A DNA stretch of 44,719 bases from an uncultured Oscillospiraceae bacterium (GTDB taxonomy: Bacteria; Bacillota; Clostridia; Oscillospirales; Oscillospiraceae), in contig CANPXW010000009.1 of NCBI GenBank assembly GCA_947587025.1, positions 1 through 44,719 of the forward strand, in the 5' to 3' direction. Numbering within the stretch: position 1 is the first letter of the stretch; each line of letters begins with the position of its first letter. A program made the position numbers and the translations under genes. Below are positions 22,514 through 39,637 of the stretch, piece by piece. The notes under the pieces are model-generated. The model was not told the origin of the DNA and ran no database searches. It was given only the letters and a program-made list of their open reading frames with translations.

Positions 22514-23800
22514 TCACTTCAGCATCATCTTGGGCAGGAACGTGATGATGCCGGGGCATGCCATCAGCAAGGCCAGTATGACGAGGGCGCAGAGGATATA
22601 GCACCAAAGATGCCGGTTGACTACGCTCCCGATCGTCGTTTTACGCAGGCCGGCGGCCACGTACAGGTTCATGCCGACCGGCGGCGTCGTCAGGCCGATG
22701 CCGAGGTTGATCACCATGATCACGCCGAAGGCCACCGGATCGACGTTAAAATGCCCCAGGATGGGAACCAGCAGCGGGGCCATGATCAGGATTGCGGGAG
22801 GCGTATCCATAAAGGTACCGATGATCAGCAGCAGGATGGTGATCAGCAGCAGGAACGTGAACTTGCCGTTGGCGATGCCGAGAATGAAATTCGTCACAGT
22901 CGTCGGGATCATCTCGTAAGTCATGACATAGCCGAAGAGCGTCGCTGCCGCGACCACGAACATGATCATGGATGTAGTCACGACCGAGCCCTTCAGTATC
23001 TTGACGATCGCGGACAGTGTCAGCTCCTTATAGACAAAGAGCCCGACGATCAGACCGTAAAGGATCGCGACGGCCGCTGCCTCTGTCGCCGTGAAGGCGC
23101 CCGTATAGATACCGCCGAGCACGATGAGCGGCATCAGCACCGCCCAGATCGAGTCGACGAACGCTTTGCCCACTTCCCTGATAGAGAACTTGTGCAGCAC
23201 CAGAGAATCCTTGTGCTTGCTGCCCCACCAGATGCCGTAGGAGGACATACCGCAGGCGAGCAGGATACCGGGGATGATGCCGCCCAGGAACACCTCACCG
23301 ACCGAGACCCCGCTGGAGACTCCGTAGAGGACCATGGGGATGCTGGGGGGTATGACCACGCCGAGCCAGCCGGCGCAGGCTGCCGTCGCCAGACTGAAGT
23401 TCAGCGGATAACCGTCCTTTACCATAGCGGGGACCATGATCCCCCCGATCGCGGCGACGGTCGCCGTCGACGAGCCCGAGATCGCCCCGAAAAAGGCGGA
23501 CGCCAGGAACGTGACTGCGGCAAGGCCGCCCGGCAGCCAGCCGACCAGAGACGTCGCCAGCCGGACCAGGCGTTTTGACACGCCGCCCTTATCCATCAGT
23601 CCTCCGGCGATGACAAAAAGCGGGATCGCCATCAGGCTGTATGCATCGACGGCGACGAAAAACCGCTGGATGACCACCGTCAGCTTTGTGCCCATGAAGA
23701 ACTCCATGGGCACGATGCCGCCAAACGCCAATGAGATCGCAATAGGGACCCCGATCAGCGCCAGCAATGCAAATGTCCCGAAAATCGCAAATACGACCAT
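22514..23800 (-). CDS. dctM: TRAP transporter large permease subunit
   Basis: A 428-residue integral membrane protein with about twelve hydrophobic segments, forming the transport channel of a tripartite ATP-independent transporter that uses an ion gradient. Family features include AIPLFVIAGGLMDKGGVSKRLV near residue 57, the FGAISGSSTATVAAIGGIMVPAM block near 110, and GLTTPPVGMNLYVAAG near the C-terminus. It lies 13 bp after dctQ with AAAGGAG upstream, and is the last gene of the operon before a strong terminator. The substrate depends on DctP and is unknown; the operon's enzymes suggest a hydroxylated or branched carboxylic acid. Confidence 0.95.
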   Translation of the reverse strand: MVVFAIFGTFALLALIGVPIAISLAFGGIVPMEFFMGTKLTVVIQRFFVAVDAYSLMAIPLFVIAGGLMDKGGVSKRLVRLATSLVGWLPGGLAAVTFLASAFFGAISGSSTATVAAIGGIMVPAMVKDGYPLNFSLATAACAGWLGVVIPPSIPMVLYGVSSGVSVGEVFLGGIIPGILLACGMSSYGIWWGSKHKDSLVLHKFSIREVGKAFVDSIWAVLMPLIVLGGIYTGAFTATEAAAVAILYGLIVGLFVYKELTLSAIVKILKGSVVTTSMIMFVVAAATLFGYVMTYEMIPTTVTNFILGIANGKFTFLLLITILLLIIGTFMDTPPAILIMAPLLVPILGHFNVDPVAFGVIMVINLGIGLTTPPVGMNLYVAAGLRKTTIGSVVNRHLWCYILCALVILALLMACPGIITFLPKMMLK

Positions 23801-23813
23801 GTTTGCTCCTTTC

Positions 23814-24386
23814 TTATTGGAAATTCTGATCGATGTCCTCTTCCGGCTCGAGCAGGCCTTCTCCTTCCTTTGCGATAAAGTCGTTCCAGAAGACCATGAG
23901 GCTGCGGATGAAGCTCATGGCGAACCCGACCAGGAGGATGCAGTAAACGATCCACATCGGCAGGCGCATGGCAGGGGACAGCTGATGCATCCTTTTGCTG
24001 TACGAGACGAACGCATATGCCTCAAACGTGAGGAGCCCGTAGGCGAACATTGCGACCAGCGACGCGATGACGCGCAGGACCTTCGCGGCTTTGGCGGGAA
24101 GAGAATTCACAACGCCGTCGATGCCCAGATGGGCCTTCTGACGCACGCCGATGCTGATCCCGATAAACGCGACGATGATCATGGAATACCTTGATATTTC
24201 TTCGCCGTACAGGTTGGGCATCTTCAGGATGAAGCGCATCACCACGCCGATGAGGATGACCGTCGTCATGACGATCATGAACGTGATCGTTATCACATCC
24301 TCGATCTTCGTCATGACCGTATCCAGCGTTCTCATGCCCTTTGTGACACCACGGACCCTTGGCTGCTCGCTGTTTTGTCGTTTCAT
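23814..24386 (-). CDS. dctQ: TRAP transporter small permease subunit
   Basis: A 190-residue protein with four hydrophobic segments (near 35-55, 70-85, 108-130 and 148-170), the layout of DctQ. Visible features are the GVVMRFILKMPNLYGEEISRY segment, in which the N(L)xxGEE pattern is typical of the family, and a charged N-terminus. It pairs with DctM to dock the periplasmic-type binding protein. A hairpin-containing 108-bp gap separates it from dctP; it precedes dctM by 13 bp. Confidence 0.9.
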   Translation of the reverse strand: MKRQNSEQPRVRGVTKGMRTLDTVMTKIEDVITITFMIVMTTVILIGVVMRFILKMPNLYGEEISRYSMIIVAFIGISIGVRQKAHLGIDGVVNSLPAKAAKVLRVIASLVAMFAYGLLTFEAYAFVSYSKRMHQLSPAMRLPMWIVYCILLVGFAMSFIRSLMVFWNDFIAKEGEGLLEPEEDIDQNFQ

Positions 24387-24441
24387 ATAGGCGATCCTTT
24401 CATTATAGTCTAGCCACCGTTTTGAAAACGCACTTATTCAA

Positions 24442-24476
24442 ATATGCGGCGATCTCTTTAGGAAACCGCCGCATAT
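24442..24476 (-). promoter_or_regulatory. Hairpin between dctP and dctQ
   Basis: ATATGCGGCG (24,442-24,451) and CGCCGCATAT (24,467-24,476) form a perfect 10-bp stem. No U-run follows, so it more likely stabilises the dctP mRNA or causes partial attenuation, a common way to make more binding protein than permease. Confidence 0.6.
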
Positions 24477-24494
24477 CTTAAGCTCTTCCTGCGA

Positions 24495-25652
24495 TCAGGC
24501 TGCGTTTCTCACGGCATCGATCTCTTCCTGGGGGATGATGTCCGCGACCGAAGCATAAACGGGCTCGACGATCGCGTCGATCCACGCCTGCCGGTCGGTG
24601 ACCTTCTGGACAGTGCAGCCGGCCGCTTCCATGGCCGCGATGCCTTCCTCCTCCTGACGGACGGTCTCATCCCACTGGACCTGGACGGACTCCTCCGCGA
24701 CCTCGCGGATGAGGTCCTGATACTCCTGGGGCATGCCGCTGAGCACTTCCTTGCTCATGATGAAGGGAGTCGGGGTGAAGCACATATCCAGGATCTCAAA
24801 GTACTTCGCCACATCCTGGAAGTTGTTGGGCACCAGCGCGGTGACGGACGTGCACACGCCGTCGACCGTGCCGTTCTGCAGCGCGGTATAGACCTCGCCG
24901 AAGGCCATCGGGACAGGGTTGGCGCCGATCTCTTCAAAGATGCTCATATAGACCTGGTTCTCCATCGTGCGGATGTTCAGACCGGTGGTATCCTCGGGAA
25001 GCTCGGTCTCCTTGTTGGCCAGGATGTCGAAGAAGCCGTTCTCATAGTAGCCCAGGCCAACGATGTCGTAGTCCTCCAGCTTCTCGAACTTTTCTTTGCC
25101 GAACTCGCCGCCCAGGACCTTGTAAGCGTGCTCTCTGTCATTGAACAGGAACGGCAGGTTGAAGATCTCAAAGGAGGGGTCGAAGTTCGCCAGCACGCCG
25201 ACGCCGACGATGGCCATGTCAACGGTGCCCATCTGAACGCTCTCCGCCAGGTCTCTCTCGTTGCCCAGCTGGGAGGAGGGATGCACTTCGACGGTAATCT
25301 TTCCGTTGGAACGCTTTTCGATCTCATCGGCGAACCACGCCGCGCCGATGTGATAGGAGTGGGTGCTGGTCTGCACGTGGCCCAGCTTCAAATTGTAGGT
25401 GGGGCCGTCCTTGAAGGCGTCGTCCGCCGCGCTGTCGGCCTCGGGCTCCTCTTCGGCCTCCTCGGCAGGCGCGGCTTCCTCGGCTTCCTCGGTCTCGGGC
25501 TCGCTGGCCTCCTCGGTGGTCTGCTTCTCTTCGCTGCTGGCGTCGGGCTCGCTGGTCTCGGCGCTCTTGTTGGAAGAGCAGGCGGCGAACAGCGCGCACA
25601 TCATGGCGACACACAGGAGCATGGCAAGGATCTTCTTCATCTTCATTTTCAT
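24495..25652 (-). CDS. dctP: TRAP transporter substrate-binding lipoprotein
   Basis: A 385-residue DctP-family protein that captures the substrate outside the membrane. It has a lipoprotein signal with lipobox LFAAC (Cys25), then a linker of about 50 residues that is almost entirely Glu, Asp, Ala and Ser (30-80). The binding fold starts near 85 (LKLGHVQTSTHSYH). Arg228 in GLNIRTMEN is at the place of the arginine that binds carboxylate in the family, so a carboxylic acid substrate is expected. A ribosome site AAGGAG is only 2 bases before the first ATG; an in-frame ATG at 25,646 has better spacing and may be the true start. It lies 33 bp after the lactonase-like gene. Confidence 0.93.
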   Translation of the reverse strand: MKMKMKKILAMLLCVAMMCALFAACSSNKSAETSEPDASSEEKQTTEEASEPETEEAEEAAPAEEAEEEPEADSAADDAFKDGPTYNLKLGHVQTSTHSYHIGAAWFADEIEKRSNGKITVEVHPSSQLGNERDLAESVQMGTVDMAIVGVGVLANFDPSFEIFNLPFLFNDREHAYKVLGGEFGKEKFEKLEDYDIVGLGYYENGFFDILANKETELPEDTTGLNIRTMENQVYMSIFEEIGANPVPMAFGEVYTALQNGTVDGVCTSVTALVPNNFQDVAKYFEILDMCFTPTPFIMSKEVLSGMPQEYQDLIREVAEESVQVQWDETVRQEEEGIAAMEAAGCTVQKVTDRQAWIDAIVEPVYASVADIIPQEEIDAVRNAA

Positions 25653-25685
25653 TTCTCCTTTTTTGATTTTTTATAGTTTTTTGAT

Positions 25686-26438
25686 TTACTCGTAAGGGTA
25701 TACCGGGTGTTCGAACACGCAGAAGTCGTGGCCGGGCAGGATCTCCGCGTCAAGGCGCAGCATCTTGCGGAAGGTCTCGTAGTATTCCGCCAGATCCACA
25801 TGGATGGACGACGGGATCGGCAGGCCGAATTTCCTCGTCTCCCAGCAATCCATCGTGGCGATGCAGTCGCAGGCGATCAGATAGCGCTTGCTGCCGGTCT
25901 CTACCAGCACGCCCTGAGAGCCGGGAGTGTGGCCGGCGAGGGTCACCAGGGTGATGCCCGGCAGGATCTCCACGTCTCCGTCGATGATCTCAAAGCGGCC
26001 GGCGGAGGAGAGCCACGGGGGCGTCAGCCCCATTTGCATCGCCTCATAGAACACATACTGGCTCGGCGTGGGCGTGATGGCGAATTCCACTTCCCGCTTC
26101 TGGACGAAGATCTTCGCGTTGGGGAACTTGTCCAGGTTATAGGCGTGGTCCCAATGCAGATGGCTGCACACCAGCAGCTTGATGTCCTCCGGCTTCACGC
26201 CGTGGGCGGCGAGCTGGTTTTCGATCTGCATCTGCTCCGGGCGTTCCAGGATATGGTGATACTTTTTCGACCATTCCGGATCGCACGCGCCCGTATCCAC
26301 CAGGACCCACTCGTCATCCGTGCGGATCAGATACGCGATCAGCGGAGACGGCTCAAAGTCCTCCGGCGCCACAGCGGGGGTGCGCAGCACCTTTTTCAGG
26401 GTACCGACATGCAGGGGGTAGATCTTGATGTCGTTCAT
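25686..26438 (-). CDS. Metallo-beta-lactamase-fold hydrolase, lactonase-like
   Basis: A 250-residue hydrolase of the N-acyl-homoserine-lactonase-like branch. Zinc ligands are visible as SHLHWDH (His93, His95, Asp97, His98), a His in AGHTPGSQG, the bridging Asp in ACDCIA and His in LPGHD. In this operon the likely job is opening a lactone or hydrolysing a thioester or ester of the imported compound; quorum quenching is less likely given the catabolic context. The start is preceded by AGGAGG. It stands between the zinc dehydrogenase (27 bp) and dctP. Confidence 0.85.
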   Translation of the reverse strand: MNDIKIYPLHVGTLKKVLRTPAVAPEDFEPSPLIAYLIRTDDEWVLVDTGACDPEWSKKYHHILERPEQMQIENQLAAHGVKPEDIKLLVCSHLHWDHAYNLDKFPNAKIFVQKREVEFAITPTPSQYVFYEAMQMGLTPPWLSSAGRFEIIDGDVEILPGITLVTLAGHTPGSQGVLVETGSKRYLIACDCIATMDCWETRKFGLPIPSSIHVDLAEYYETFRKMLRLDAEILPGHDFCVFEHPVYPYE

Positions 26439-26465
26439 CCTCTTTTCCTCCTGTTTTTGTTTGTT

Positions 26466-27527
26466 TCAGACCAAGGGGACCCGTTCCTTCAGCCCCGGCC
26501 GAAGCAGGATCTTGATCTCTTTTCCGTTCTTGTCCAGCGAGGCGTCGAGCGCCTCCTGGGTCTGCTCCAGGGGCCAGACGCTGGTGACGATCTGCCGCAG
26601 CTCATCGTTGAGATCCCCGCGATTGATCAGATTCGCCGCCTCCGCAAAATCGTTCAGATGATGCATGTTGACGCAGAGCATGTCGACTTCCTTCTTCACC
26701 AGCTTGCCAAAGTCAACGGACCGGTTCGGGTTCGGCAGGGCGACCGGGACGACTCTGCCCTTCGGCCGGACCACATCGAACGCCAGATCCCAGCCCGGCT
26801 GCGAGCCGGAGACCTCGAAGACCATGTCCACCCCGCCGTCGGTGGTGTCCGCGACGATCTTGCGGACGTCCTCCTTCAGGGAGTTATACACCTCAAAGCC
26901 CATGGCGCGCATCTGCTCGATGCGGTTTTCGCTGATCTCCGTATAGATGATACGGGACGCGCCGTTATGCCTCGCCAGGATGCCGATCAGCATGCCGATG
27001 GCGCCGGCGCCGATGATGAGCGCGGTGTCGCCCAGGCCGATGCCGCTGTTGCGGACGTCAAAGACGCCTATCGCCAGAGGCTCGGCGATGCTCGCGACGA
27101 TCGGGTCCACATCGGGGTCGATGGGGAACAGCTTGTCCACATCGCGCTCCAGGAACTCCGCGAAGGTACCGCCCGGACGGCGGATCGCGCCGTACTGCGC
27201 GGAGCAGATGCTGAACCGCCCCTCCATGCACTGGTCGCAGACGCCGCAGGGAGCGTTCTGGGGACCGACCACCAGATCGCCGACCTTGACGCGGCACGGA
27301 AGGTTGTCCGGGTTATTGATCTCGACCACCTCTCCGTAATACTCGTGGCCATAGGCGCGGGGCTGCTCCGGGCTGGCCCCGTAAGCGTTCCGCGCGATAA
27401 GGCCCGGATCTCCTCCGCAGATGCCGGCGTAGATCACGCGGATGAGAGCCTGTCCCGCCTTGGGCACCGGTTTTTCTATGTCTGTGTAAGACCCCTGTGC
27501 CGGACCTGTAACAACGTACCCTTTCAC
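26466..27527 (-). CDS. Zinc-dependent medium-chain dehydrogenase
   Basis: A 353-residue polyol or threonine dehydrogenase-like enzyme. It has the catalytic zinc Cys in GICGGDP, where CGxD is usual but the Thr/Ser before Asp is replaced by Gly, then His-Glu in YGHEYYGEV. Structural zinc cysteines are in CGVCDQCMEGRFSIC, and the NAD motif is GAGAIGM. It probably oxidises a secondary alcohol of the substrate, possibly to the ketone used by the transketolase. The start is GTG at 27,525-27,527 with AAGGAGG 7 bases upstream. It is followed by the lactonase-like gene and preceded by a related Rossmann-only protein. Confidence 0.9.
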   Translation of the reverse strand: MKGYVVTGPAQGSYTDIEKPVPKAGQALIRVIYAGICGGDPGLIARNAYGASPEQPRAYGHEYYGEVVEINNPDNLPCRVKVGDLVVGPQNAPCGVCDQCMEGRFSICSAQYGAIRRPGGTFAEFLERDVDKLFPIDPDVDPIVASIAEPLAIGVFDVRNSGIGLGDTALIIGAGAIGMLIGILARHNGASRIIYTEISENRIEQMRAMGFEVYNSLKEDVRKIVADTTDGGVDMVFEVSGSQPGWDLAFDVVRPKGRVVPVALPNPNRSVDFGKLVKKEVDMLCVNMHHLNDFAEAANLINRGDLNDELRQIVTSVWPLEQTQEALDASLDKNGKEIKILLRPGLKERVPLV

Positions 27528-27561: not shown

Positions 27562-28062
27562 TCACATCGCGAGCAGCCGCTCGGCTATCCGAAGGCTGTC
27601 GGCGTCGTAGCTGGTGACGCCGATGAAATGGATCTGATCCCGGATAGAGTCGCATACGTGGAAATAATAGGGCTCTGCCGGCGCCTTCATCAAGGCTACG
27701 CACGCGCCGCGTTTGGCCGTCTTCAGCATCAGATCATACATGGCCAGATCTCCGGTGGACTCGATCACGATGTCGAACTTCCTGGAGCTGGTCACATCCT
27801 TGATCATCGCCCCCACGTCGCCCTCGTCCGTCCGGAAGGGGATGAAGCCCTTCTCCTTGATCAGCTCCTCCTGCTCCTTGTCTGCGGCGCAGAAAACGAC
27901 CGCCGCCGCGCCCGTGTTCTTCGCGACCTGCCCGCACAGGAGCGACACCTCGTCAAGACCTGTGATCAGGACAAACTTCCCGTACCGGAATTCGCATCGC
28001 TTGAGTGCGCAGACCGATAACGCCAGGGATTTAACATCCGTTTCGACGCTGTACTTTGCCAT
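27562..28062 (-). CDS. Rossmann-only relative of medium-chain dehydrogenases, function unknown
   Basis: A 166-residue protein resembling only the cofactor-binding half of a zinc alcohol dehydrogenase (FVLITGLDEVSLLCGQVAKN, then FDIVIESTGD, then GACVALMKAPAEP). The catalytic zinc domain is missing, and the glycine motif reads GLDEVS instead of GxGxxG, so NAD binding as in the family is doubtful. The frame is intact with a strong AAGGAGG before the ATG at 28,062, so it seems to be a maintained gene and not a decaying fragment. It precedes the full-length dehydrogenase by 34 bp and may be a partner or regulatory subunit. No confident function. Confidence 0.75.
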   Translation of the reverse strand: MAKYSVETDVKSLALSVCALKRCEFRYGKFVLITGLDEVSLLCGQVAKNTGAAAVVFCAADKEQEELIKEKGFIPFRTDEGDVGAMIKDVTSSRKFDIVIESTGDLAMYDLMLKTAKRGACVALMKAPAEPYYFHVCDSIRDQIHFIGVTSYDADSLRIAERLLAM

Positions 28063-28113
28063 ACCAAGTTCCTCCTTATCTGTATTTTGGGTCATTCTTT
28101 GTGTTCTATGTGT

Positions 28114-29064
28114 TCAAAGCAGGCCTTTGACCGCCGCGATCACGCCGTCCGTCCCGTAGCCGTACTTCTTGTGCAGCTGCGGCGACAGGCCATAGGAGGG
28201 ATACACATCGGGGATGCCGAGGCGCTTGAGCTTGCAGCTGATCCCCTCGTCCGCCAAGGTCTCCGCCACGGCGCTGCCCAGACCGTTGTAGACGGAATGG
28301 TCTTCCACCGTCACGATGCGGCCGGTGGCAGCGGCGGCCTCCAGGATGGCCTGCTTGTCCAGGGGCTTGAGCGTGTGCATATCGATCACGCCCACGTCGA
28401 CGCCCTCCTTTTCGAGCCGCATGGCAGCCTCCACGGCATAGCGCAGCACAAGGCCGAACGAGATGATGGTGGCGTCCTTTCCGGGCCTGGCCACGATGGC
28501 CTTGCCGATCTTGAACTCGTAATCCTCGCCGTATATCTCCGCGTCGTTGGTGCCCTCGCCCATGCGGATGTACATCGGCCCGTCATAATCCACAGAGGCA
28601 TGGAACACCTTGCGCATCATGGTGACGTCCGAGGGGCAGACGACGGTGCTGTTGGCGATGCCGCGAATGATGCCGGCGTCCTCCAGCCCGGAATGGGTCG
28701 GGCCGGTGATCGCGATGCCGCCGTACGCAGCCACGAGGCGCACGTTCAGGCCCATGTAGCAAACGTCCGTGCGGAACTGCTCTATGGCGCGCATGGTCAG
28801 AAACGGCGCGAAGGAGGAGCAGTACGGGATCTTTCCGTTCATCGCCAGGCCGGCCGCCATGCCCACCATGTTCTGTTCGGAGATGCCAACGTTAAAATAC
28901 CGGTCCGGGAAGCTCTTGCGGAAATTCTCCGTGCAGACCGAGCGCGACAGGTCCGCTGTGAGCGCGACCACGTTGGGATTGGCGGCACCGATCTCCGCCA
29001 GCGCTTCGTGCCAGATCGGCCTGCTGTTCGCGTGGACCTTTTCCGTCGGGTCAAAAAGTTTCAT
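28114..29064 (-). CDS. Transketolase-like enzyme, C-terminal subunit
   Basis: A 316-residue protein holding the pyrimidine-binding and C-terminal domains of a split transketolase. The catalytic glutamate for ThDP activation is in YFNVGISEQNMVG; AYGGIAITGPTHSGLED and VEDHSVYNGLGSAVAETL follow. It forms a heterotetramer with the subunit encoded just before it, with a 4-bp overlap (ATGA). Split transketolases are common in catabolic operons, for example for apulose phosphate or sulfosugars. No kinase is encoded here, so its sugar or acid substrate remains open. Confidence 0.92.
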   Translation of the reverse strand: MKLFDPTEKVHANSRPIWHEALAEIGAANPNVVALTADLSRSVCTENFRKSFPDRYFNVGISEQNMVGMAAGLAMNGKIPYCSSFAPFLTMRAIEQFRTDVCYMGLNVRLVAAYGGIAITGPTHSGLEDAGIIRGIANSTVVCPSDVTMMRKVFHASVDYDGPMYIRMGEGTNDAEIYGEDYEFKIGKAIVARPGKDATIISFGLVLRYAVEAAMRLEKEGVDVGVIDMHTLKPLDKQAILEAAAATGRIVTVEDHSVYNGLGSAVAETLADEGISCKLKRLGIPDVYPSYGLSPQLHKKYGYGTDGVIAAVKGLL

Positions 29065-29930: not shown

Positions 29931-29949
29931 TCGTTCCGTCACCCTTTCT

Positions 29950-30801: not shown

Positions 30802-30806
30802 ATCTC

Positions 30807-32024: not shown

Positions 32025-32446
32025 GTCTCACCCTCCCCCTTTTTCAGGATCGTGACGGTCCCGTTGGTCGCGTCGACCCGGACAAAGTCGCCGTCTTCGA
32101 TCAGCGCGTAGGGGTCCTCCTCCATGTGGTCCACCACCGGTATCTTCCCCATGATAGCGCCGGCCGCGATGATCGTCTCCGTGTTCAGATTGATGATGGC
32201 TGCGGGCGCCGTGCCCTCCTTTGCCACCTGATAGACCACATAGGAGCCGCCGGTCGAGCCCTTTCCGTAGGGAAAGATCAGCACCTTCCCCGCGAAGGAC
32301 TTCCCCTCCAGTTCATGCGCCCGCTCCGTGATAGTGCCCGTCGGCACGTCCACGCCGAAGTTGAAGCCGATCGGCTGTCTGCAAACCAGCGCCGGACCTT
32401 CTCCATACCCCTTGCTGATGCATCTGCAAGCTACTTTTTTCTCCAT
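32021..32446 (-). CDS. Aconitase X, small (swivelling-domain) subunit
   Basis: A 141-residue protein of the former DUF126 family, the swivelling beta/alpha domain that closes the aconitase X active site. Visible motifs are GTITERAHELEGKSFAGKVLIFPYGKGSTGGSYV and IINLNTETIIAAGAIMGKIPVVD; the KGSTGGSYV loop is the conserved substrate-binding part. I place the start at 32,446, with AAGGGG upstream and 4 bp after the PrpF stop; an earlier in-frame ATG lies inside PrpF. In many bacteria the two subunits are fused; here they are separate. Confidence 0.9.
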   Translation of the reverse strand: MEKKVACRCISKGYGEGPALVCRQPIGFNFGVDVPTGTITERAHELEGKSFAGKVLIFPYGKGSTGGSYVVYQVAKEGTAPAAIINLNTETIIAAGAIMGKIPVVDHMEEDPYALIEDGDFVRVDATNGTVTILKKGEGET

Positions 32447-32450
32447 TTCT

Positions 32451-33608
32451 CTACCCCTTGTCAAAGATCTCGTTCTTCACATATGCGACGCCATCCAATA
32501 GCTTTCTGGCCGTCCGCTCATATGCCAGCTGCGTAAAAGCGCCGTCCTCCCCGCGCTGGGCGTTCACCCGGATGCTGCCGCCCGGATGGCCGATGCGCAG
32601 CTCCGTCCGGGACCGCGCCTGCTCGGACAGCTGCCGCCAGACCAGCGTTCCCGGGATGCGCGCCGCCGCGCCCGTGCAGACGGTGCCGGTCCCCGGATAG
32701 GTCTTGTGCATGTGGAGCATGAAGCTCAGGCGCGCGGTGATGTCTATCTCGTCCGCCTCCACCATGTGCCCGTCGATCTCGCTCTGATACGACTGCGGGG
32801 GGCTGACCAGCGCGAAGAACGGGGCGTACGGATTGGCGGTCGCCTCCTGGGCGGTCTTTGCCAGACCGATCTTGACCGTACAGGCCGCGCGGATGGCCTC
32901 CATCTTCGCGCACAACTCTCTGTCCGCCTCGATCTGCCTGCACAGCTCGGTCCCCTTCAGTCCCAGCGTCTTGGCCTCGACGAAGACGACGACGTTGCCC
33001 GCGTCCACGATCGACATTTCCACCTCTCCGCAGCCGGGGACCTGGATGCGGTCGACAGGGTTTCCCGTCGGCAGGACCTTTCCGGTCGTAGAGCCGGCCG
33101 AGTCGAAAAAGTCCAGCAGGATCGGCGCTCCGGTCCCGGGCACGCCGTCGATGCGGCAGTCGCCGGACACCTGCGCCTTGCCCCCGCACACCGGCACGTC
33201 CGCGATCAGCACGCAGTCCGTGTTCACCTGGTGTATCCGCACGCGGGCCACCGGTCCGTCCGTCTTGACGATGCCCTCGTCTACCGCGAACGCGCCGACT
33301 GCAGAGGAGATATTCCCGCAGTTGCCGCCGTAATCGACCAAGTCGCTGTCAAAGCTCACCTGCGCGAACGTGTAGTCGAGGTCCGTATCCGGCCTGCTCG
33401 GCGGTCCGATGATGGCCAGCTTGCTCGTCAGCACCTCCGCGCCGCCCAGGCCGTCGATCTGCCGGGGGTCCGGGCTGCCGAAGACCGCCTGGATGACGCG
33501 CTTGCGTTCATCCGCTCCGGCGGGAAGCTCGTTTTCCCGGATGAAGATGCCTTTGCTGGTGCCTCCGCGATAGATGGACACTCTGATCTGCTGCATTTGC
33601 GGATGCAT
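32451..33608 (-). CDS. PrpF-family double-bond isomerase/tautomerase
   Basis: A 385-residue protein of the PrpF family, which moves a C=C bond in unsaturated di- and tricarboxylates: 2-methylaconitate isomerase (PrpF), 3-methylitaconate isomerase (Mii) and oxalomesaconate tautomerase (GalD). It has the N-terminal RVSIYRGGTSKGIF, the catalytic Cys97 in GGNCGN, and a C-terminal RIGHPGGSIRV matching the second acid/base half. It lies 3 bp after the hydratase small subunit and 4 bp before aconitase X. The combination of PrpF-like isomerase and LeuCD-type hydratase recalls Mii plus dimethylmaleate hydratase in nicotinate fermentation. Confidence 0.9.
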   Translation of the reverse strand: MHPQMQQIRVSIYRGGTSKGIFIRENELPAGADERKRVIQAVFGSPDPRQIDGLGGAEVLTSKLAIIGPPSRPDTDLDYTFAQVSFDSDLVDYGGNCGNISSAVGAFAVDEGIVKTDGPVARVRIHQVNTDCVLIADVPVCGGKAQVSGDCRIDGVPGTGAPILLDFFDSAGSTTGKVLPTGNPVDRIQVPGCGEVEMSIVDAGNVVVFVEAKTLGLKGTELCRQIEADRELCAKMEAIRAACTVKIGLAKTAQEATANPYAPFFALVSPPQSYQSEIDGHMVEADEIDITARLSFMLHMHKTYPGTGTVCTGAAARIPGTLVWRQLSEQARSRTELRIGHPGGSIRVNAQRGEDGAFTQLAYERTARKLLDGVAYVKNEIFDKG

Positions 33609-33611
33609 GGC

Positions 33612-34112
33612 TCAGTCCTCCTTCGCTTTCTTCTTCAGGTACCCCATCAGTCCGCCGCAGTCGAGCAGCTCAACGATGTGGGGCGGCAGCGCGTCGCAGA
33701 CCAGCTCCAGCCCCTGGGTCACATCCAGCACGACGCCCCGCTGCAGATCGACCTGCAGCTCGTCGCCGTCGTGTATCAGATACGCCTGCTCGCAGACGAG
33801 CGCCGGCAGGCCGATATTCAGACAGTTGCGGTAAAATATCCTGGCAAAGAATTCGGCTATCACCACGGATACGCCGCACTCCTTCAGCGCGATCGGCGCG
33901 GTCTCCCGGCTGGAGCCGGAGCCGAAATTCTTGCCGGCCACGACCATGTCCCCCGGCTGTACCTTCGCGCTGAAATCCTTATCCACGCCCTCCATGGCGT
34001 GGGCGGCGATGTCCCGATAGCTCATCTCCATATACTGAGCGGGAGAGATCAGGTCCGTATTGATGTGGTCTCCGAACTTATGCGCCTTTCCGCACAGCTT
34101 CTTCTTTTCCAT
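33612..34112 (-). CDS. Aconitase-family hydratase, small subunit (LeuD/DmdB-like)
   Basis: A 166-residue swivelling-domain protein of the isopropylmalate isomerase/homoaconitase type. It shows [16 protein letters not shown] near the start, the substrate-binding [14 protein letters not shown] (about 60-75) and [16 protein letters not shown]. It forms the active hydratase with the LeuC-like subunit. The ATG at 34,112 has GAGGGGAG upstream; an in-frame ATG at 34,130 would overlap the previous stop by 4 bp and cannot be excluded. It is followed 3 bp later by the PrpF-like gene. Confidence 0.9.
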
Positions 34113-34126
34113 CCTGCGCTCCCCTC

Positions 34127-35389
34127 TCAATGACAGTGCTCTCTGGGATCCGCCAGCCGTCCCTCCAGCGCGGACGCCGCCAGCGTAGCGGGAGAGGCCA
34201 GATAAACGAAAGCGTCCTTGCTGCCCATCCGGCCCTTGAAGTTCCGGTTCGTCGTGGATACGCAGTTCTCGCCGTCCGCCAGCAGCCCCGAGTGCACGCC
34301 CAGGCAGGCGCCGCAGGTAGGCGCGAGTATCACGGCGCCCGCTTCGGACAGGTCTGCGAGCAGACCCCGCTTCTCCGCCTCGTCCCAGATGGCTTTGGAG
34401 GAGGGCGAGACCAGCAGCCGGCAGCCGGCGGCGACTTTTTTCCCCCGCAGGATACCGGCGGCGGCCTCAAGATCGTGCAGCCGGCCGCCCGTACAGGAGC
34501 CCAGATACGCCTGGTGGATGGGCACGCCCTTCACCTCGTCGATGGGATGGACGTTGTCCACCTCGTGCGGGCACGCCACCTGCGGCGGGAGCTCTCCCGC
34601 GTCAAAGTCCAGCGACTGGGCGTATGCGCAGTCGTCGTCACTGCGCAGCGCGTATCCCTTCGCCTGGCACCCGTGCTCCCGCAAATAGCGGTAGGTGGTC
34701 TCGTCTGCCGCGATCAGGGCCGCCTTCGCGCCGGACTCCACGCCCATGTTCGCGATGCACATCCGCTCGTCCATCGGCAGCCGCTCTATCGTATCCCCGC
34801 AGAACTCCAGCGTCTTGTAAGTAGCGCCAGCGTGGCCCAGCACGCCGATCGTCTTCAGGATGATGTCCTTCGCCATCACCGCCGGGGAGAGGGAGCCCGT
34901 CCAGCACACCCTGATGCTCTCCGGCACCCGCAGCCATATCTCCCCCGTCGCCAGGACCCCCGCCATCTCGCTGGAGCCGATACCGGTCCCAAAGCACCCG
35001 AACGCGCCGGCCGTGCACGTATGGGAATCCGTTCCCACCTGGAGCGTCCCAGGAAGGCTGAATCCGTGCTCCGCCAGGACCTGATGGCAGGGCCCGAGCC
35101 CCTCGAAGTAATTATCGACCCCGTGGTCTCTGGCCCACTTTCTCGTATACGACACGATGTTGGCCTGCAGGATCGTGGCGGCGGGCACGTAGTGGTCGCA
35201 TATCACGACGGCCTTCTCCGGCTGCTTTATCTTCCCGCCGAGCTGGCTGAGCGCGTCGTCAAGGATGCGCGGTCCGAGGATGTCGTCCATCATGGCGCAG
35301 TCCACCTGTGCCATCACGATGTCGCCCGCCTTTACGGACGTCTGGCAGCTGCACCGCGCAAGTATCTTCTCCGACATGGTCTGTCCCAT
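34127..35389 (-). CDS. Aconitase-family hydratase, large subunit (LeuC/DmdA-like)
   Basis: A 420-residue 4Fe-4S dehydratase/hydratase. Cluster ligands are Cys299 (GSCTGG), Cys359 and Cys362 (TCGACLG); the VGTDSHTCTAGAFG block (118-131) and TTNRNFKGRMGS (379-390) are also present. The length and two-subunit form match isopropylmalate isomerase, homoaconitase and dimethylmaleate or citraconate hydratases. No leucine biosynthesis gene is nearby, so leuC is not a suitable name; addition of water to an unsaturated dicarboxylate in this catabolic operon fits better. The start is preceded by AAGGAGGAG. It ends in a 3-bp overlap region with a possible longer start of the small subunit. Confidence 0.92.
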   Translation of the reverse strand: MGQTMSEKILARCSCQTSVKAGDIVMAQVDCAMMDDILGPRILDDALSQLGGKIKQPEKAVVICDHYVPAATILQANIVSYTRKWARDHGVDNYFEGLGPCHQVLAEHGFSLPGTLQVGTDSHTCTAGAFGCFGTGIGSSEMAGVLATGEIWLRVPESIRVCWTGSLSPAVMAKDIILKTIGVLGHAGATYKTLEFCGDTIERLPMDERMCIANMGVESGAKAALIAADETTYRYLREHGCQAKGYALRSDDDCAYAQSLDFDAGELPPQVACPHEVDNVHPIDEVKGVPIHQAYLGSCTGGRLHDLEAAAGILRGKKVAAGCRLLVSPSSKAIWDEAEKRGLLADLSEAGAVILAPTCGACLGVHSGLLADGENCVSTTNRNFKGRMGSKDAFVYLASPATLAASALEGRLADPREHCH

Positions 35390-35417: not shown

Positions 35418-36311
35418 TCAGGCCGGTCTTTCCTGGATAAGGATATGATGCCCGCTGTAGTTGCCCGGTATCTTTTCCACCTGGAGCTTCGCCGCCCTCA
35501 GCAGCGCTCTCTGGTCGATCCCCGTCTCATAGCCCTCTCTGTCCAGCAGATACACCAGATCCTCCGTCGCGGTGTTCCCCGTGGCCCCCGGAGCGAACGG
35601 ACATCCGCCCAGTCCGCCCAGCGTGGTCTGCACGGTGTCGACGCCGCAGCGTATGGCCTCGTAGCTGTTGAGGATGCCCATGTTCCGGGTATCGTGGATA
35701 TGCGCCGAAAAATGCGCCTCCGGGAACGCCTCCATCAGCTCCGAGAACGCCTGCCTGACCTGGACCGGATAGGCGACGCCGATCGTATCGCAGATATTGA
35801 AGTCCCTGACACCGATGCGTTCCAGCTTACCGACGAACTCCACCAGCCGTCCGACGTCCATCTGTCCTTCAAAGGGGCAGCCGAACGCCGTGGCCACGTC
35901 TATCTCGACCTTCAGCTCCGGGAAGGCGTCCAGGATGCGCTCGAGCTCGTCAAAGGACTGCTGATGCGTCCGCCGGACGTTGTTCATGTTATGGCTGGCG
36001 CTCAGGGAGATCACCGTGGACACGCTATCCAGGCCCGCCTGCACTGCGGCTTCCGCGCCGCGAAAATTCGGCACCAGCGCGAAGAAGGAGACGTCCGGAT
36101 ACTTTTCCAGAAGGGTCCGGGTCACCTCCGCCGCGTCGTGCATCTGCGGGATGGCCTTCGGACTGACGAAGCTGGTGCACTGTATCCTCTTTACGCCGGC
36201 GTCAACGATGGCGCCGATGATCTCCAGCTTCGTCTCCGTGGGGATCATGTGGCAGCTCACGCTTTGGAAGCCGTCGCGGGGACCTGTCTCTACTATGTTG
36301 ATATGCTTCAC
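35418..36311 (-). CDS. HMG-CoA lyase-family acyl-CoA lyase
   Basis: A 297-residue TIM-barrel lyase. Arg12-Asp13 (GPRDGFQ), SFVSPKAIPQM, the metal-binding His204 and His206 (AHIHDTRN), and the G-loop Cys237 (GLGGCPFAPGATGN) are all present, so it should be an active retro-aldol lyase of 3-hydroxy-acyl-CoA: HMG-CoA, or a relative such as citramalyl-CoA. The start is GTG at 36,309-36,311, with GAGGAG about 10 bases upstream; the longer open frame only overlaps the CoA-transferase gene. Together with that transferase (14 bp upstream) it would activate and split the final hydroxy acid to acetyl-CoA or pyruvate-type products. Confidence 0.92.
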   Translation of the reverse strand: MKHINIVETGPRDGFQSVSCHMIPTETKLEIIGAIVDAGVKRIQCTSFVSPKAIPQMHDAAEVTRTLLEKYPDVSFFALVPNFRGAEAAVQAGLDSVSTVISLSASHNMNNVRRTHQQSFDELERILDAFPELKVEIDVATAFGCPFEGQMDVGRLVEFVGKLERIGVRDFNICDTIGVAYPVQVRQAFSELMEAFPEAHFSAHIHDTRNMGILNSYEAIRCGVDTVQTTLGGLGGCPFAPGATGNTATEDLVYLLDREGYETGIDQRALLRAAKLQVEKIPGNYSGHHILIQERPA

Positions 36312-36325
36312 TGTTTTGGTTCTCC

Positions 36326-37522
36326 TCAGAGGACATGTTCTTCCGCCAGGGCCGCGATCTGTTCCTCCGTCATGCCGAGCCGCTGCTTCAGGATGAGCGC
36401 GTTGTCCTCGCCCAGCAGCGGGGCGGGTTTGCGGATCGAGGTCTTCTGGTTCGTGAATTTCAAATGGCTGTTCGTCAGCTTCATGGTCCCCGCCACCGGG
36501 TGATCGCATTCCACGAACATCTCCCGCGCGCCGGCGATGTGCGGGTCGGCCACCACCCGATCGATGGTGTTGATCGGTCCGGCCGGGATACCGGCCTGGA
36601 GGAGCTGCTCCACGATGTCGTCGATCTTTCTCTCCTTCGTCCAGCCCTCGATGATCTGCTTGAGCTGCTCGTGGTTCTCCACCCGCTTCAGGTTCCGGTC
36701 AAATTTTTCATCCTCCAGGGCCGGGATGCGCAGCACTCCCTTCAGCAGCCCGTACAGCTTATCGTTCCCGCAGGCGATGATCACATAGCCGTCCGCCGCG
36801 CGGAAGGAGTCGTAGGGATAGATCGCCTCGTAGCGGTTGCCGATCTGCTCCGGCACGCGGCCCGTGCAGAGGTAGATCATGTTGATGATCTCCAGGGCCG
36901 ACACCATGCCGTCCACCAGCGAGATGTCCACCTTGTCGCCCACGCCCGTTTTCAGCCGGCTGCAATAGGCCGCCAGCACGCCGATGCAGCAGCTCAGGCC
37001 GCCTACCACGTCGGCGATCGCCGTGCCTGTCCTGGTCGGCGGCGTATCGGGCCACCCGGTGGTGCTCATCAGACCGCTCATGGCCTGCCCGATGATGTCA
37101 TATCCCGCCCGCTCCGAGTACGGACCATAGTGGCCGAAGCCCGATATGCAGCCGTAGACGATCGCCGGATTGACCTTGCGCAGCTGCTCGTAGCCAAGGC
37201 CCAGCTTGTCCATCACGCCCGGACGGTAGTTCTCCAGCACGATGTCGCTCTGCTTTACCAGCTCCAGGAAGATGCTCTTGCCCTTTTCGCTCTTGAGGTT
37301 CAGCGTCATGCCGTACTTATTGCGGTTCAGATTCATAAAGTACGCGCTCTCGCCGTTCACCACCGGCGCGTTCGCCCTCGAATCGTCCCCGCAGCCGGGG
37401 AGCTCGATCTTTATCACCTCGGCGCCCATATCGGCCAGCATCATCCCGCAGTAGGGCCCTGCCAGGACCCGCGTCAGATCGAGTACTTTTACCCCGCTCA
37501 ATATACCCTGTGTTTTGTTCAC
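36326..37522 (-). CDS. Class III (CaiB/BaiF-family) CoA-transferase
   Basis: A 398-residue family III CoA-transferase. It has the N-terminal VLDLTRVLAGPYCGMMLADMGAEVIKIE, NLNRNKYGMTLNL, and the expected catalytic Asp171 in TAIADVVGG, then IPAGPINTIDRVVADPH near the C-terminus. It moves CoA between carboxylates without ATP. As the first gene of the operon it likely activates the acid that the HMG-CoA-lyase-like protein then cleaves. The start is GTG at 37,520-37,522 with GGAGG and AAAGGA upstream. Donor and acceptor acids cannot be read from the sequence. Confidence 0.93.
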   Translation of the reverse strand: MNKTQGILSGVKVLDLTRVLAGPYCGMMLADMGAEVIKIELPGCGDDSRANAPVVNGESAYFMNLNRNKYGMTLNLKSEKGKSIFLELVKQSDIVLENYRPGVMDKLGLGYEQLRKVNPAIVYGCISGFGHYGPYSERAGYDIIGQAMSGLMSTTGWPDTPPTRTGTAIADVVGGLSCCIGVLAAYCSRLKTGVGDKVDISLVDGMVSALEIINMIYLCTGRVPEQIGNRYEAIYPYDSFRAADGYVIIACGNDKLYGLLKGVLRIPALEDEKFDRNLKRVENHEQLKQIIEGWTKERKIDDIVEQLLQAGIPAGPINTIDRVVADPHIAGAREMFVECDHPVAGTMKLTNSHLKFTNQKTSIRKPAPLLGEDNALILKQRLGMTEEQIAALAEEHVL

Positions 37523-37580
37523 TTTCCTTTTTTCCTCCGCTTTTCTTCATTGAAAAGTCTGCGAATCGTAAAAGACCTTG

Positions 37581-37595
37581 TGTATGAATCATACA
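37581..37595. promoter_or_regulatory. 15-bp dyad over the catabolic operon promoter
   Basis: TGTATGA, A, TCATACA: a perfect 7-bp inverted repeat that contains the -10 box of the operon promoter. Position suits a repressor, or a site that blocks the polymerase until inducer is present. Confidence 0.55.
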
Positions 37596-37616
37596 GTCAA
37601 TTTCCGTGCATTTCAA
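37588..37616 (-). promoter_or_regulatory. Sigma-A promoter of the 15-gene catabolic operon
   Basis: Minus-strand TTGAAA (37,611-37,616), 17-bp spacer, TATGAT (37,588-37,593). Start near 37,581, about 60 bp before the GTG of the CoA-transferase gene. The hexamers are identical to those of the divergent regulator promoter. No GG/GC -24/-12 sigma-54 element was seen. Confidence 0.75.
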
Positions 37617-37637
37617 TCTATTTTGTCTATGTTATAT

Positions 37638-37681
37638 AAAATGTTTCATAATATACCCCTTCTTGCCCCTTGAAACATTTT
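37638..37681. promoter_or_regulatory. Long-spaced inverted repeat between the divergent promoters
   Basis: AAAATGTTTCA (37,638-37,648) and TGAAACATTTT (37,671-37,681) are perfect 11-base complements separated by 22 bp. The right arm overlaps the regulator's -35 box, and the dyad centre lies about 79 bp upstream of the operon start. This fits one regulator activating the operon and repressing itself. Confidence 0.6.
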
Positions 37682-37698
37682 TACGTCTGTGCTATGAT
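37670..37698 (+). promoter_or_regulatory. Sigma-A promoter of the PrpR-like regulator
   Basis: TTGAAA (37,670-37,675), 17-bp spacer, TATGAT (37,693-37,698), about 43 bp before the start codon. Confidence 0.75.
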
Positions 37699-37747
37699 TT
37701 TAACAGGCGCACAGAGCCCATCTATTTTGGGGAGGAGATCGTGGGAT

Positions 37748-39637
37748 ATGAAGCGGCCATACAGCATCTGCTTTCTGGGATATGAGAACCTGAGCGACAT
37801 CGCGCGCAAGGTCATCCAGGAGGGGTCATTTCAGGACGCGGACGTGCTGCTGCTGGAGTGCACGCCCGACAATCTTTCCGAGCAGCTGGAATACGCGGTC
37901 CAGCACGGCTGCGAGGCCTTCATCGCGGGCTCCTCCAACGCGGCGGAGTTCCGCCGCATCTCCAACATGCCTCTGACGGAGATACAGATACAGATCTTCG
38001 ATTACGTGCTGGCGCTGAAAAAAGCGTTCGCGATCGGGGAGCTGCCGGTCCTGTTCACATACCGCTTTTCCAAGGCACCGGATATTTCCCTGCTCCAGAC
38101 CGTGTTCGACAGGCGCTTTCTGTATATCACCTACGAGGACACCTACGACCTGACGCAAAAACTCAGCGGCACCGACGGCGACGTCGTCATCGGCGCGTCC
38201 CTCGTCACGTCCCTGGCGCAGAGCTACGGCAAAAAGAGCGTGTTCCTGTACCCCGGCAGTCGCTCGGTCGAGGACGCCTTCCGGCGCTGCCAATCCTCCA
38301 TGCGCAGTCTCTATACCCACAACCGCAACCAGGTCATCTACAGCAGCATCATCAACAACGACGTCAACGGCATCATCTTCGCCAACGAAAAGGGAGACGT
38401 CATCCTCTATAACCCAGCGGCGGAAAAGCTCACCGGGGTGCCCGCCCAGCAGATCAGGAAGCGGAACTTCGAGGACCTTTTCCCGTGGGCCGGTCTGAAA
38501 GAGATCATGGAGTCCGACGACAGCCAGCTCCGGCGGACCGTCGCTCTGAACGGCCAATATGTGGAATTGACGTCCATCAAGGTGTCGGTCAACGGGAACG
38601 TGCTGGGAGCGCTGATGCTGCTGTCGCATACGCCCGCGCCGCTCTCCGCCCCTGCGGAGCCGGACAAAAAGGCCGGCGAGCGCAACGCGCTGCAGTTTTC
38701 ATTTTCCCAGTTCACCTGCGTTTCCGCGCAGATGGCCCAGGCCATAGAGGACGCCAAGGCATACAGCGTCCACCCGGAGCCCTGCGTCATCGTCGGAGAA
38801 GCCGGCACAGGCAAGGTCACGTTCGCCAGCGCCATGCACGCCTATGGTCCGCGCAGCATGCACCCCATCCGCCTCGTCAACTGCGCCACCATCGAGCCCC
38901 GGTACGCCGCCCAGTACTTTTGGGGAAGAGAGGATTTTTCCGGGCAGGTCGTCAACCAGGGGATACTGGAGCGCTGCGACCACGGGACCCTGGTCCTTGA
39001 GCGCATCGCAGACGCCGACCCGGTGGTGCAGGACTGCCTTGCGCACGCGCTCAAGACGCGGCAGCTCCAGCGCCTGAACGGGACACGGTCCATCCCACTG
39101 GACGTGCGGCTGATAACTCTGGTGTCCCCCCAGGAGTGGGACTCGCTCCAGCAAAGGCTCACCCCCGAACTGTATTACGCGCTGACCCCGTTCATCCTGC
39201 GTCTGCCAGCTCTCCGGGAGCGTCCCGAGGACATCTCCCCTCTCTTTGAGGGATTCGTCAACGACAACCTCTCCCTGCGAACGAACTCCTTTTCCGCCTC
39301 CAAGTCGCTGTCCACGATCTTCCGGGAGTACTCGTGGCCGGGCAATCTCAGCGAGCTGAAGAACGTCGCCTGCCGCTTCGCGTTCCAGATAGAAAAGCTG
39401 GGCAAGCTAAGCCCCTATATGCAGCGCCGCACGCTGATCTCAGCCATCGGCGAGGACGAGCTGTTTTACGACATCACCCGCCCGTTCGGCGATCTGAACG
39501 CGCTGAAGGATCTCCCCGGGGAGCTGCTGCGCTTGAACGAGAAGCTCAAGCACGTCCTGGCATACAACAACGACCAGATCGCCAGCAGGCTGAACATCAG
39601 CCGAACGACGCTGTGGAGGCTGCTGAACAACCCCTGA
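37748..39637 (+). CDS. PrpR-like transcriptional regulator with degenerate AAA+ domain
   Basis: A 629-residue regulator. Regions in order: PrpR-N-type sensor (about 5-190), PAS (about 197-295), AAA+ of the NtrC family (about 325-555) and a C-terminal Fis-type HTH (DQIASRLNISRTTLWRLL, 609-626). Walker A is near normal (GEAGTGK, 350-356), but Walker B reads HGTLVLERIAD with no Asp-Glu, and the GAFTGA loop is replaced by REDFSGQ. It should therefore not drive sigma-54 polymerase; a TyrR-like mode at sigma-A promoters is more likely. The start at 37,748 has GGAGGAG 10 bases upstream. It is divergent from the catabolic operon and presumably senses its substrate. Confidence 0.88.
   Translation: MKRPYSICFLGYENLSDIARKVIQEGSFQDADVLLLECTPDNLSEQLEYAVQHGCEAFIAGSSNAAEFRRISNMPLTEIQIQIFDYVLALKKAFAIGELPVLFTYRFSKAPDISLLQTVFDRRFLYITYEDTYDLTQKLSGTDGDVVIGASLVTSLAQSYGKKSVFLYPGSRSVEDAFRRCQSSMRSLYTHNRNQVIYSSIINNDVNGIIFANEKGDVILYNPAAEKLTGVPAQQIRKRNFEDLFPWAGLKEIMESDDSQLRRTVALNGQYVELTSIKVSVNGNVLGALMLLSHTPAPLSAPAEPDKKAGERNALQFSFSQFTCVSAQMAQAIEDAKAYSVHPEPCVIVGEAGTGKVTFASAMHAYGPRSMHPIRLVNCATIEPRYAAQYFWGREDFSGQVVNQGILERCDHGTLVLERIADADPVVQDCLAHALKTRQLQRLNGTRSIPLDVRLITLVSPQEWDSLQQRLTPELYYALTPFILRLPALRERPEDISPLFEGFVNDNLSLRTNSFSASKSLSTIFREYSWPGNLSELKNVACRFAFQIEKLGKLSPYMQRRTLISAIGEDELFYDITRPFGDLNALKDLPGELLRLNEKLKHVLAYNNDQIASRLNISRTTLWRLLNNP

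Follow-up and report, generated by a model that had tools for sequence, protein, structure and literature searches.

The stretch of DNA analyzed here (the window, 44,719 nucleotides) is contig C9 of a metagenome-assembled genome (MAG) from an uncultured Oscillospiraceae bacterium; the MAG comprises 2.32 Mb in 154 contigs and is 79.9% complete and 2.0% contaminated. Its minus strand carries an operon of 16 co-directional genes (37522 to 22514), which divides into three layers: a core; aconitase X (AcnX) and a hydrolase; and a β-hydroxyacid dehydrogenase, a split transketolase, and two zinc-dependent dehydrogenase genes. The core is made up of a PrpF isomerase of the 3-methylitaconate isomerase (Mii) type, a LeuCD-type hydratase, a class III coenzyme A (CoA)-transferase, and a lyase of the 3-hydroxy-3-methylglutaryl-CoA (HMG-CoA) lyase type. 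The operon is real, and the core is conserved and forms an apparently undescribed catabolic module of the Mii/citramalate kind.

We assigned gene families by Pfam and NCBIfam profile searches. A reading made from the sequence alone had described a catabolic operon of 15 tightly spaced genes that apparently belonged to no described pathway. All of the families that it named are present, and we found no described pathway with this gene set in the open-access literature. The spacing is indeed tight (gaps of −14 to +34 nt, with one exception of 108 nt before DctQ, after the starts of the lyase gene and the first transketolase half were re-called), but the genes number 16, the extra one being a free-standing Rossmann half of a zinc dehydrogenase. 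The core begins with the 398 aa CoA-transferase (36326–37522; PF02515, 6e-126; this and all other operon genes lie on the minus strand), followed by the lyase (35418–36311; HMGL-like PF00682, 2e-42), the LeuC/DmdA-type large subunit (34127–35389; Aconitase/LeuC, 7e-100) and the LeuD/DmdB-type small subunit (33612–34130; Aconitase_C/LeuD, 2e-18) of the hydratase, and the Mii-like PrpF (32451–33608; PF04303, 3e-122). The lyase gene had been recognized from the sequence alone, but its start is most likely GTG 36311, behind GAGGAG, and not ATG 36509.

The core module and its relatives

Among solved proteins, PrpF is nearest to 3-methylitaconate isomerase (3g7k, 392.7 bits), followed by 2h9f (unnamed, 279), 2pvz (265), and 5k87 (263); its scores on the NCBIfam profiles of PrpF and 4-oxalomesaconate tautomerase fall short of the cut-offs. 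LeuC scores highest against isopropylmalate/citramalate isomerase (384 bits), ahead of homoaconitase (346) and aconitase (132), and LeuD is nearest to the small subunit of isopropylmalate/citramalate isomerase. The substrate loop of LeuD, AQYMEM (PxYMEL in most core relatives), matches neither of the loops of known activity with which it was compared (citramalate isomerase, YLVY; homoaconitase, YLRT). The lyase passes the NCBIfam threshold of hydroxymethylglutaryl-CoA lyase (NF004283, 273 versus 246 bits) and carries ETGPRDG, HIHDTR, and GGCPFAPG, which we take to be catalytic motifs; the CoA-transferase carries GTAIADVVGG, which presumably holds the catalytic Asp. The CoA-transferase would activate a hydroxy-diacid with CoA, and the lyase is a putative (R)-citramalyl-CoA-type lyase.

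LeuCD-type enzymes yield (R)-citramalate. In configuration, (R)-HMG-CoA is the counterpart of the (S) citramalyl group, and the HMG-CoA lyases of the TIM-barrel type act specifically on the (S) form (PMC6689899, in part), so such lyases would fit (R)-citramalyl-CoA. As far as homology predicts, the hydratase and lyase families agree on the (R) stereochemical series. The known (R)-citramalyl-CoA pair consists of a class III CoA-transferase and an HMG-CoA-lyase-family lyase, the same two families as in the operon, whose pair differs in being tied to PrpF, LeuCD, and AcnX. Enzyme Commission numbers exist for both the known lyase (EC 4.1.3.46) and its succinyl-CoA:(R)-citramalate CoA-transferase (EC 2.8.3.20) (PMC8307300, in part).

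A PrpF profile built from a three-sequence alignment was scanned against genome contigs, and the best 80 of at least 535 confirmed stretches were kept as loci. Genes were counted within the fetched flanks, with loci cut by contig ends scored as misses, and at identities of at least 50% for the CoA-transferase, 40% for the lyase, and 50% for LeuC. The quick maximum-likelihood PrpF tree used here (a more careful one was unfinished) has 83 rows: these 80 loci, the window, L022, and L154. L154 carries the lyase label although its lyase lies elsewhere in the genome, and L093 and L095 are labeled as other although a gene of the isocitrate lyase (ICL) type is present. A single clade of 23 rows (SH-aLRT 96) takes in all 19 lyase-labeled rows and none with the ICL-type label; the labels change 4 times on the tree, compared with a shuffled mean of 17.3, and none of 500 shuffles was as low.

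Twenty of the 80 loci belong to this clade, which is the window's, and 60 lie outside it. The full core (CoA-transferase, lyase, LeuC, LeuD, and PrpF) is present in 14 of the 80, all of them in the clade. The lyase was found in 16/20 clade loci and 0/60 others, the CoA-transferase in 15/20 and 0/60, LeuC in 16/20 and 1/60, and a YM[ED] LeuD loop in 15/20 and 1/60. The readable clade loops are YMEL, YMEM, or YMEY, with YMDA (L074) and HMAL (L076) as exceptions; outside the clade, L062 (just outside) has YMEM and L129 has GMEE. Counterparts of three genes of a cluster in genome G548 (mutase, enamidase, and nicotinate dehydrogenase; names assigned by eye) and of an ICL-type lyase were each absent from the 20 clade loci and occurred in 13, 10, 4, and 26 of the 60 others, respectively.

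The 14 full-core loci are spread over several families of Bacillota, plus one strain of the Pasteurellaceae, Testudinibacter. The lyase, LeuCD, and PrpF also occur in a Fusobacteriaceae MAG (L070), and the core-bearing organisms include cultured type strains of Anaerospora hongkongensis and Eubacterium multiforme. PrpF is rare among the window's kin: of 295 genomes of the order, the window's alone had it at E ≤ 1e-60; at 1e-40, 7 of 391 class genomes matched, and at 1e-20, 3 of 35 genomes of the genus, the window's included. The two other PrpF proteins of the genus (G1074 and G1062) are 43–45% identical to that of the window; the first stands with a LeuCD that is ~42–45% identical and the second is on a 5-kb contig, and no core CoA-transferase or lyase was found at either locus. 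In a Yersinia ruckeri plasmid (L017, 5557–8090) and in Edwardsiella piscicida (L076, 9496–14687), only part of the core appears to be present in the stretches inspected, with LeuC short or missing and no CoA-transferase or lyase nearby.

Other genes recur beside PrpF. A GGGtGRT and NifU-like pair (L060, L065, L067, L068, L071, and L153) was observed in 5/20 core-clade loci and 0/60 others, and also in G1324; it could possibly supply Fe-S clusters to AcnX or LeuCD. Enoate-reductase-like flavoproteins, present in 3/20 clade loci and 9/60 others, could form methylsuccinate as an electron sink. A second type of cluster (L096, L122, L127, and L132, and in part L093 and L095) combines MmgE/PrpD, a lactonase-like hydrolase, PrpF, an ICL-type lyase, and LeuCD, in several cases with a tripartite ATP-independent periplasmic (TRAP) importer; the ICL-type and most MmgE/PrpD names were assigned by eye. 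The logic seems to be the same, except that MmgE/PrpD would replace AcnX and the ICL-type lyase would replace the CoA-transferase and HMG-CoA-lyase-type enzyme.

Aconitase X and its gene neighborhoods

AcnX is encoded as a small (swivel) subunit (32021–32464; PF01989, 1e-29) and a large (catalytic) subunit (30807–32024; PF04412, 1.7e-142), the latter a predicted β-hydroxyacid dehydratase. The large subunit keeps the three cluster Cys, Glu129, Ser130, Ser131, Lys361, Tyr365, and Asn79, and the small subunit keeps the catalytic-site Ser62 and Thr63 (TkAcnX numbers; for the small subunit, an offset of one was applied between paper and chain). The window AcnX shares with type II AcnX (phosphomevalonate and cis-3-hydroxyproline dehydratases) the same two subunits, the catalytic Ser/Thr, Glu-Ser-Ser, Lys, Tyr, and the three cluster Cys; it differs in pocket residues that fully match neither known activity and in its branched-acid gene context. 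Among the phosphomevalonate dehydratase residues, Asn79 alone is kept; in the large subunit Ser replaces Asn53, and in the small subunit Asn and Gly take the places of Leu27 and Val64. Asp203 and Trp35 of cis-3-hydroxyproline dehydratase (AtAcnX) are Ala and Asn. On these pocket residues, we think it unlikely that the enzyme is a hydroxyproline or phosphomevalonate dehydratase.

The replacement of the hydrophobic Leu27 and Val64 by Asn and Gly would suit a more polar substrate. The two known AcnX substrates are carboxylic acids with a hydrogen on the α carbon and a hydroxyl on the β carbon; itamalate (hydroxymethylsuccinate) and itatartarate share this pattern. A CAGLS string with Ser53 and Asn35 is common to the AcnX of the window, G1324, and UBA6096, and Asn35 alone also occurs in a Cupriavidus locus (L049). 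None of the landmark residues of the two known activities is present in AcnX subclasses IIc–IIf, which call for characterization (PMC8184944, in part); the window AcnX likewise lacks most of these landmarks.

We sought the large subunit in 400 family genomes, 398 phylum genomes, and four core-bearing genomes. Apart from the window, only two matches reached at least 79% identity, in G1324 (80%) and UBA6096 (79%; small subunit 82%), and the next-best match among the family genomes was 48% over a partial length. Both of these relatives adjoin core genes and a lactonase-like hydrolase, and these two further genomes support the proposal that AcnX is a partner of PrpF. In G1324, 7 of the 16 families lie within 13 kb (LeuC to the AcnX large subunit), in the order LeuC-LeuD; an SSS-type transporter (by eye), NifU-like, and GGGtGRT genes on the other strand; hydrolase; regulator; CoA-transferase-PrpF-AcnX small-AcnX large; and a Mem_trans-family transporter. 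In UBA6096 (on the contig of L065), 11 of the 16 families lie within 26 kb. The order there is regulator, CoA-transferase, hydrolase, transporter (by eye), a flavin-type oxidoreductase (Oxidored_FMN + Pyr_redox, which we liken to enoate reductases), NifU-like, GGGtGRT, PrpF, LeuC, LeuD, lyase, regulator, second CoA-transferase, aldehyde dehydrogenase, Fe-alcohol dehydrogenase, and DctPQM, with AcnX large-AcnX small at the end on the opposite strand. The window's CoA-transferase is 73% identical to one L065/UBA6096 copy, and its DctM is 56% identical to the UBA6096 copy.

Homologous loci thus keep the core and AcnX genes together, but not the five genes in the middle of the operon, which are missing from the stretches examined around both AcnX-bearing relatives; the idea that all of the genes form one conserved set is not supported. 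More distant AcnX relatives occur, at E ≤ 1e-60, in 20 non-window genomes among 398 of the phylum, and the 10 contexts read show other neighbors and give no substrate clue. AcnX proteins ~45% identical to that of the window (L050–L053 and L055) stand beside RraA-like and often dihydroorotate-dehydrogenase-like genes (by eye), with LeuC-like genes as well in L050 and L051; perhaps these belong to another AcnX pathway.

The remaining genes and the flanks

The five middle genes begin with a 3-hydroxyisobutyrate-type β-hydroxyacid dehydrogenase (29950–30816; PF03446 + PF14833), for which the nearest solved proteins are two 3-hydroxyisobutyrate dehydrogenase entries and then 2-hydroxymethylglutarate dehydrogenase. 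The transketolase is split into an N-terminal half (29061–29942, start uncertain; PF00456 Transketolase_N) with the motif GDGELQEG and a pyrimidine-binding plus C-terminal half (28114–29064; PF02779 + PF02780, Transket_pyr/Transketolase_C) with GISEQNM; we assume that both motifs are catalytic. Transketolase halves occur in 2/20 clade loci and 0/60 outside. In Dorea D27 (L068), a transketolase adjoins the core but was set aside, as that genome has eight transketolase matches, and the one in L060, which follows the PrpF gene amid seemingly unrelated genes, was not used as support. Between the transketolase and the full-length zinc-dependent dehydrogenase (26466–27527; PF08240 + PF00107) sits the free-standing Rossmann half (177 aa, 27562–28095; PF00107 [ADH_zinc_N] alone), which had no match at E ≤ 1e-15 among the other 399 family genomes searched.

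The lactonase-like hydrolase has a metallo-β-lactamase fold (25686–26438; PF00753). Its nearest solved proteins are acyl-homoserine lactone lactonases and then 4-pyridoxolactonase, and HLHWDH, H170, D191, and H237 are invariant in the window and nine relatives. The TRAP importer consists of the solute-binding protein DctP (24495–25652; PF03480), the small permease DctQ (23814–24386; PF04290), and the large permease DctM (22514–23800; PF06808). DctP, which was modeled from seven sequences (mean pLDDT 78.6), is 34% identical to its nearest solved protein, 4pdd, and 29% identical to 7bbr, for which the label "sugar acid" is the only ligand wording used in this comparison. PA0884–PA0886 form the transporter of the Pseudomonas itaconate cluster (PMC9875883, in part), and PA0884 would be its itaconate binder, judging from parts of PMC9875883 and PMC12599236.

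A divergent PrpR-like regulator (PrpR_N-PAS-AAA+) lies on the plus strand (37670–39637; PF06506, PF00989, and PF00158), within the stretch that the sequence-only reading covered. It has GREDFSG in place of the sigma-54 contact motif, which is GAFTGA in 16 of 19 related regulators longer than 500 aa and GSFTGA in the other three, and no −24/−12-like site with up to two mismatches was found in 37522–37670; the regulator therefore probably does not act with sigma-54, and we set aside sigma-54 control of the operon as unsupported. A sigma-70-like promoter match precedes the operon (37588–37616, minus strand; TTGAAA-17-TATGAT, 10 of 12 consensus positions), and an intrinsic-terminator-like hairpin follows DctM (22435–22464, minus strand; 13-bp stem, then a T-rich tail). 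Such matches number 10 in the window compared with 4.6 in shuffles for promoters (~2-fold) and 18 compared with 11.4 for terminators (1.6-fold). The GC content is 61.7% in the operon, 64.5% in the left flank, and 64.0% in the right flank. A C69-family dipeptidase (20750–22303; Peptidase_C69, 3.5e-45), with a start that by eye resembles a signal peptide, adjoins the end of the operon.

A possible route, its alternatives, and its significance

From the gene families, their contexts, and the catalytic motifs we infer the reactions and the substrate as follows. The operon would allow an anaerobe to degrade a branched hydroxy-dicarboxylic acid, or the lactone of such an acid, by way of an itaconate-type intermediate; we favor this reading tentatively, as coming close to probable. 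The substrate would be imported by DctPQM, and a lactone would be opened by the hydrolase. AcnX would dehydrate the β-hydroxy acid to an alkylidene- or methylene-succinate (in the simplest case, itamalate to itaconate), PrpF would carry out a 1,3-shift (itaconate to citraconate), and LeuCD would hydrate the product to an (R)-citramalate-type acid. After CoA transfer onto this acid, retro-Claisen cleavage by the lyase would release acetyl-CoA together with a 2-oxoacid, which would be pyruvate for a C5 substrate. The order of isomerization, hydration, CoA transfer, and cleavage had been suggested in the sequence-only reading, and it matches the core module in other genomes. In nicotinate fermentation, a related β-hydroxyacid dehydrogenase acts on 2-formylglutarate; the one in the operon might interconvert formylsuccinate and hydroxymethylsuccinate, and the split transketolase and zinc dehydrogenases might bring in or recover a sugar-like portion. 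Itaconate-type acids are our best guess for the substrate.

Several observations weigh against this reading. The window is a single contig of a MAG that is about 80% complete. AcnX was present in none of the 80 PrpF loci within the fetched flanks, and a close AcnX is missing from three of the four core-bearing genomes searched (UBA6096 has one; L061 has a 38% match, L060 a 30% match, and L063 none). In G1324, the nearest HMG-CoA-lyase-type gene, also the best match (55%), is at 1.84 Mb, 1.1 Mb from the AcnX cluster. The β-hydroxyacid dehydrogenase occurs in 0/20 clade loci and 15/60 others and the hydrolase in 2/20 and 11/60, so neither marks the core. The stretches read near the AcnX genes of G1324 and UBA6096 contain no counterpart of the β-hydroxyacid dehydrogenase, transketolase, or zinc dehydrogenases, so how these enzymes would fit into the pathway is a guess, and the middle five genes may belong to a second pathway. 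The acidic residue of the LeuD loop (YMEM/YMEL) was not seen in the three characterized hydratases aligned, and the substrate of the hydratase may therefore differ from citraconate. DctP is only 24% identical to PA0884, below its identity to 4pdd and 7bbr, so itaconate itself is probably not imported; the imported compound is probably more hydroxylated. Family membership alone would also allow C6 or tricarboxylate substrates.

The absence of the middle five genes near both AcnX-bearing relatives also fits a composite operon, in which the core, AcnX, and the hydrolase handle a branched diacid and the importer, transketolase, zinc dehydrogenase, and β-hydroxyacid dehydrogenase make up a joined sugar-acid (aldonate) pathway. 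The greater similarity of DctP to the sugar-acid binder than to PA0884 points the same way, as does the commonness of split transketolases (in addition to those of Dorea D27, there are two matches elsewhere in the UBA6096 genome). However, the 16 genes all run in one direction at close spacing, between one promoter match and one terminator-like hairpin, and DctPQM are also part of the UBA6096 island and of PrpF-LeuCD clusters that have no transketolase (L095 and L096). We consider a composite operon somewhat unlikely.

A single scheme that covers the lactonase, the transketolase, and the dehydrogenase would start from itatartarate, derived from 2-hydroxyparaconate, and end in acetyl-CoA and hydroxypyruvate, which would be a C2 donor for the transketolase and be reduced by the β-hydroxyacid dehydrogenase. 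The Pseudomonas itaconate cluster does encode a 2-hydroxyparaconate lactonase, of another family (PMC9875883, in part). The best NCBIfam match of the dehydrogenase, 2-hydroxy-3-oxopropionate reductase, is consistent with the scheme although it falls below the cut-off (185 versus 341 bits), and the acidic LeuD loop and polar AcnX pocket would suit a hydroxyl. The acidic loop is also found, however, in core loci without a lactonase or transketolase, and AcnX, PrpF, and LeuCD would together have to invert a stereocenter, a three-enzyme inversion for which we know of no precedent. This scheme seems to us quite unlikely.

The similarity of PrpF to Mii of the nicotinate pathway, its nearest solved relative, and to PrpF of the G548 cluster (52% identical, with LeuC 44%; nicotinate-type by eye) would suit a C6 route from 3-methylitaconate through dimethylmaleate to 2,3-dimethylmalate, with cleavage of the CoA ester to propionyl-CoA and pyruvate. 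The LeuD loops differ, however, and the nicotinate-type genes and ICL-type lyase are missing from all 20 clade loci, which makes this route distinctly improbable. Aconitase-superfamily and PrpF enzymes also act on tricarboxylic acids such as aconitate and one relative (L060) is from goat omasum, but isomerization and hydration of trans-aconitate (a forage acid), with cleavage as citryl-CoA, is very improbable given Glu/Met in LeuD where homoaconitase has Arg/Thr (YLRT; the Arg presumably binds the extra carboxylate) and LeuC scores of 384 bits on citramalate isomerase and 132 on aconitase.

The favored itaconate-type route also resembles two known pathways. The lower part of nicotinate fermentation comprises Mii, DmdAB, and Dml, together with Hgd. 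The operon shares with it a Mii-type PrpF, a LeuCD-type hydratase, and a β-hydroxyacid dehydrogenase related to 2-hydroxymethylglutarate dehydrogenase, but has a CoA-transferase and an HMG-CoA-lyase-type enzyme, and its PrpF falls in a separate clade; ICL-type 2,3-dimethylmalate lyase, B12-dependent 2-methyleneglutarate mutase, and nicotinate genes are absent among the 16 genes. In the aerobic Pseudomonas itaconate pathway (Ict-Ich-Ccl), a CoA-transferase and a lyase lead to acetyl-CoA and pyruvate, and the cluster includes a TRAP importer and a lactonase (PMC9875883 and PMC13307414, both in part). The two have in common the C5 branched-diacid logic, a CoA-transferase, an acetyl-CoA-forming lyase, a TRAP importer, and a lactonase. 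They differ in that the operon would isomerize and hydrate free acids before CoA transfer and that its lyase is of the HMG-CoA-lyase family, with an expected (R) rather than (S) preference. Neither itaconyl-CoA hydratase (Ich) nor a CitE-type lyase is among the 16 genes, the only ones checked for them.

As stated in the portion of a 2025 paper drawn on here (the literature used includes part of PMC12290011), no itaconate-fermenting bacteria are known yet. The core is a candidate for such a fermentation. It is possible, though doubtful, that the core is the first fermentation route for itaconate-type acids, proceeding by way of free acids and (R)-citramalyl-CoA, and that AcnX is a new itamalate- or itatartarate-type dehydratase that feeds it from lactonized precursors. 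The window AcnX now has a pathway context. The core supplies candidate genes and organisms, including the cultured strains Anaerospora hongkongensis and Eubacterium multiforme, and itaconate fermentation thereby becomes directly testable.

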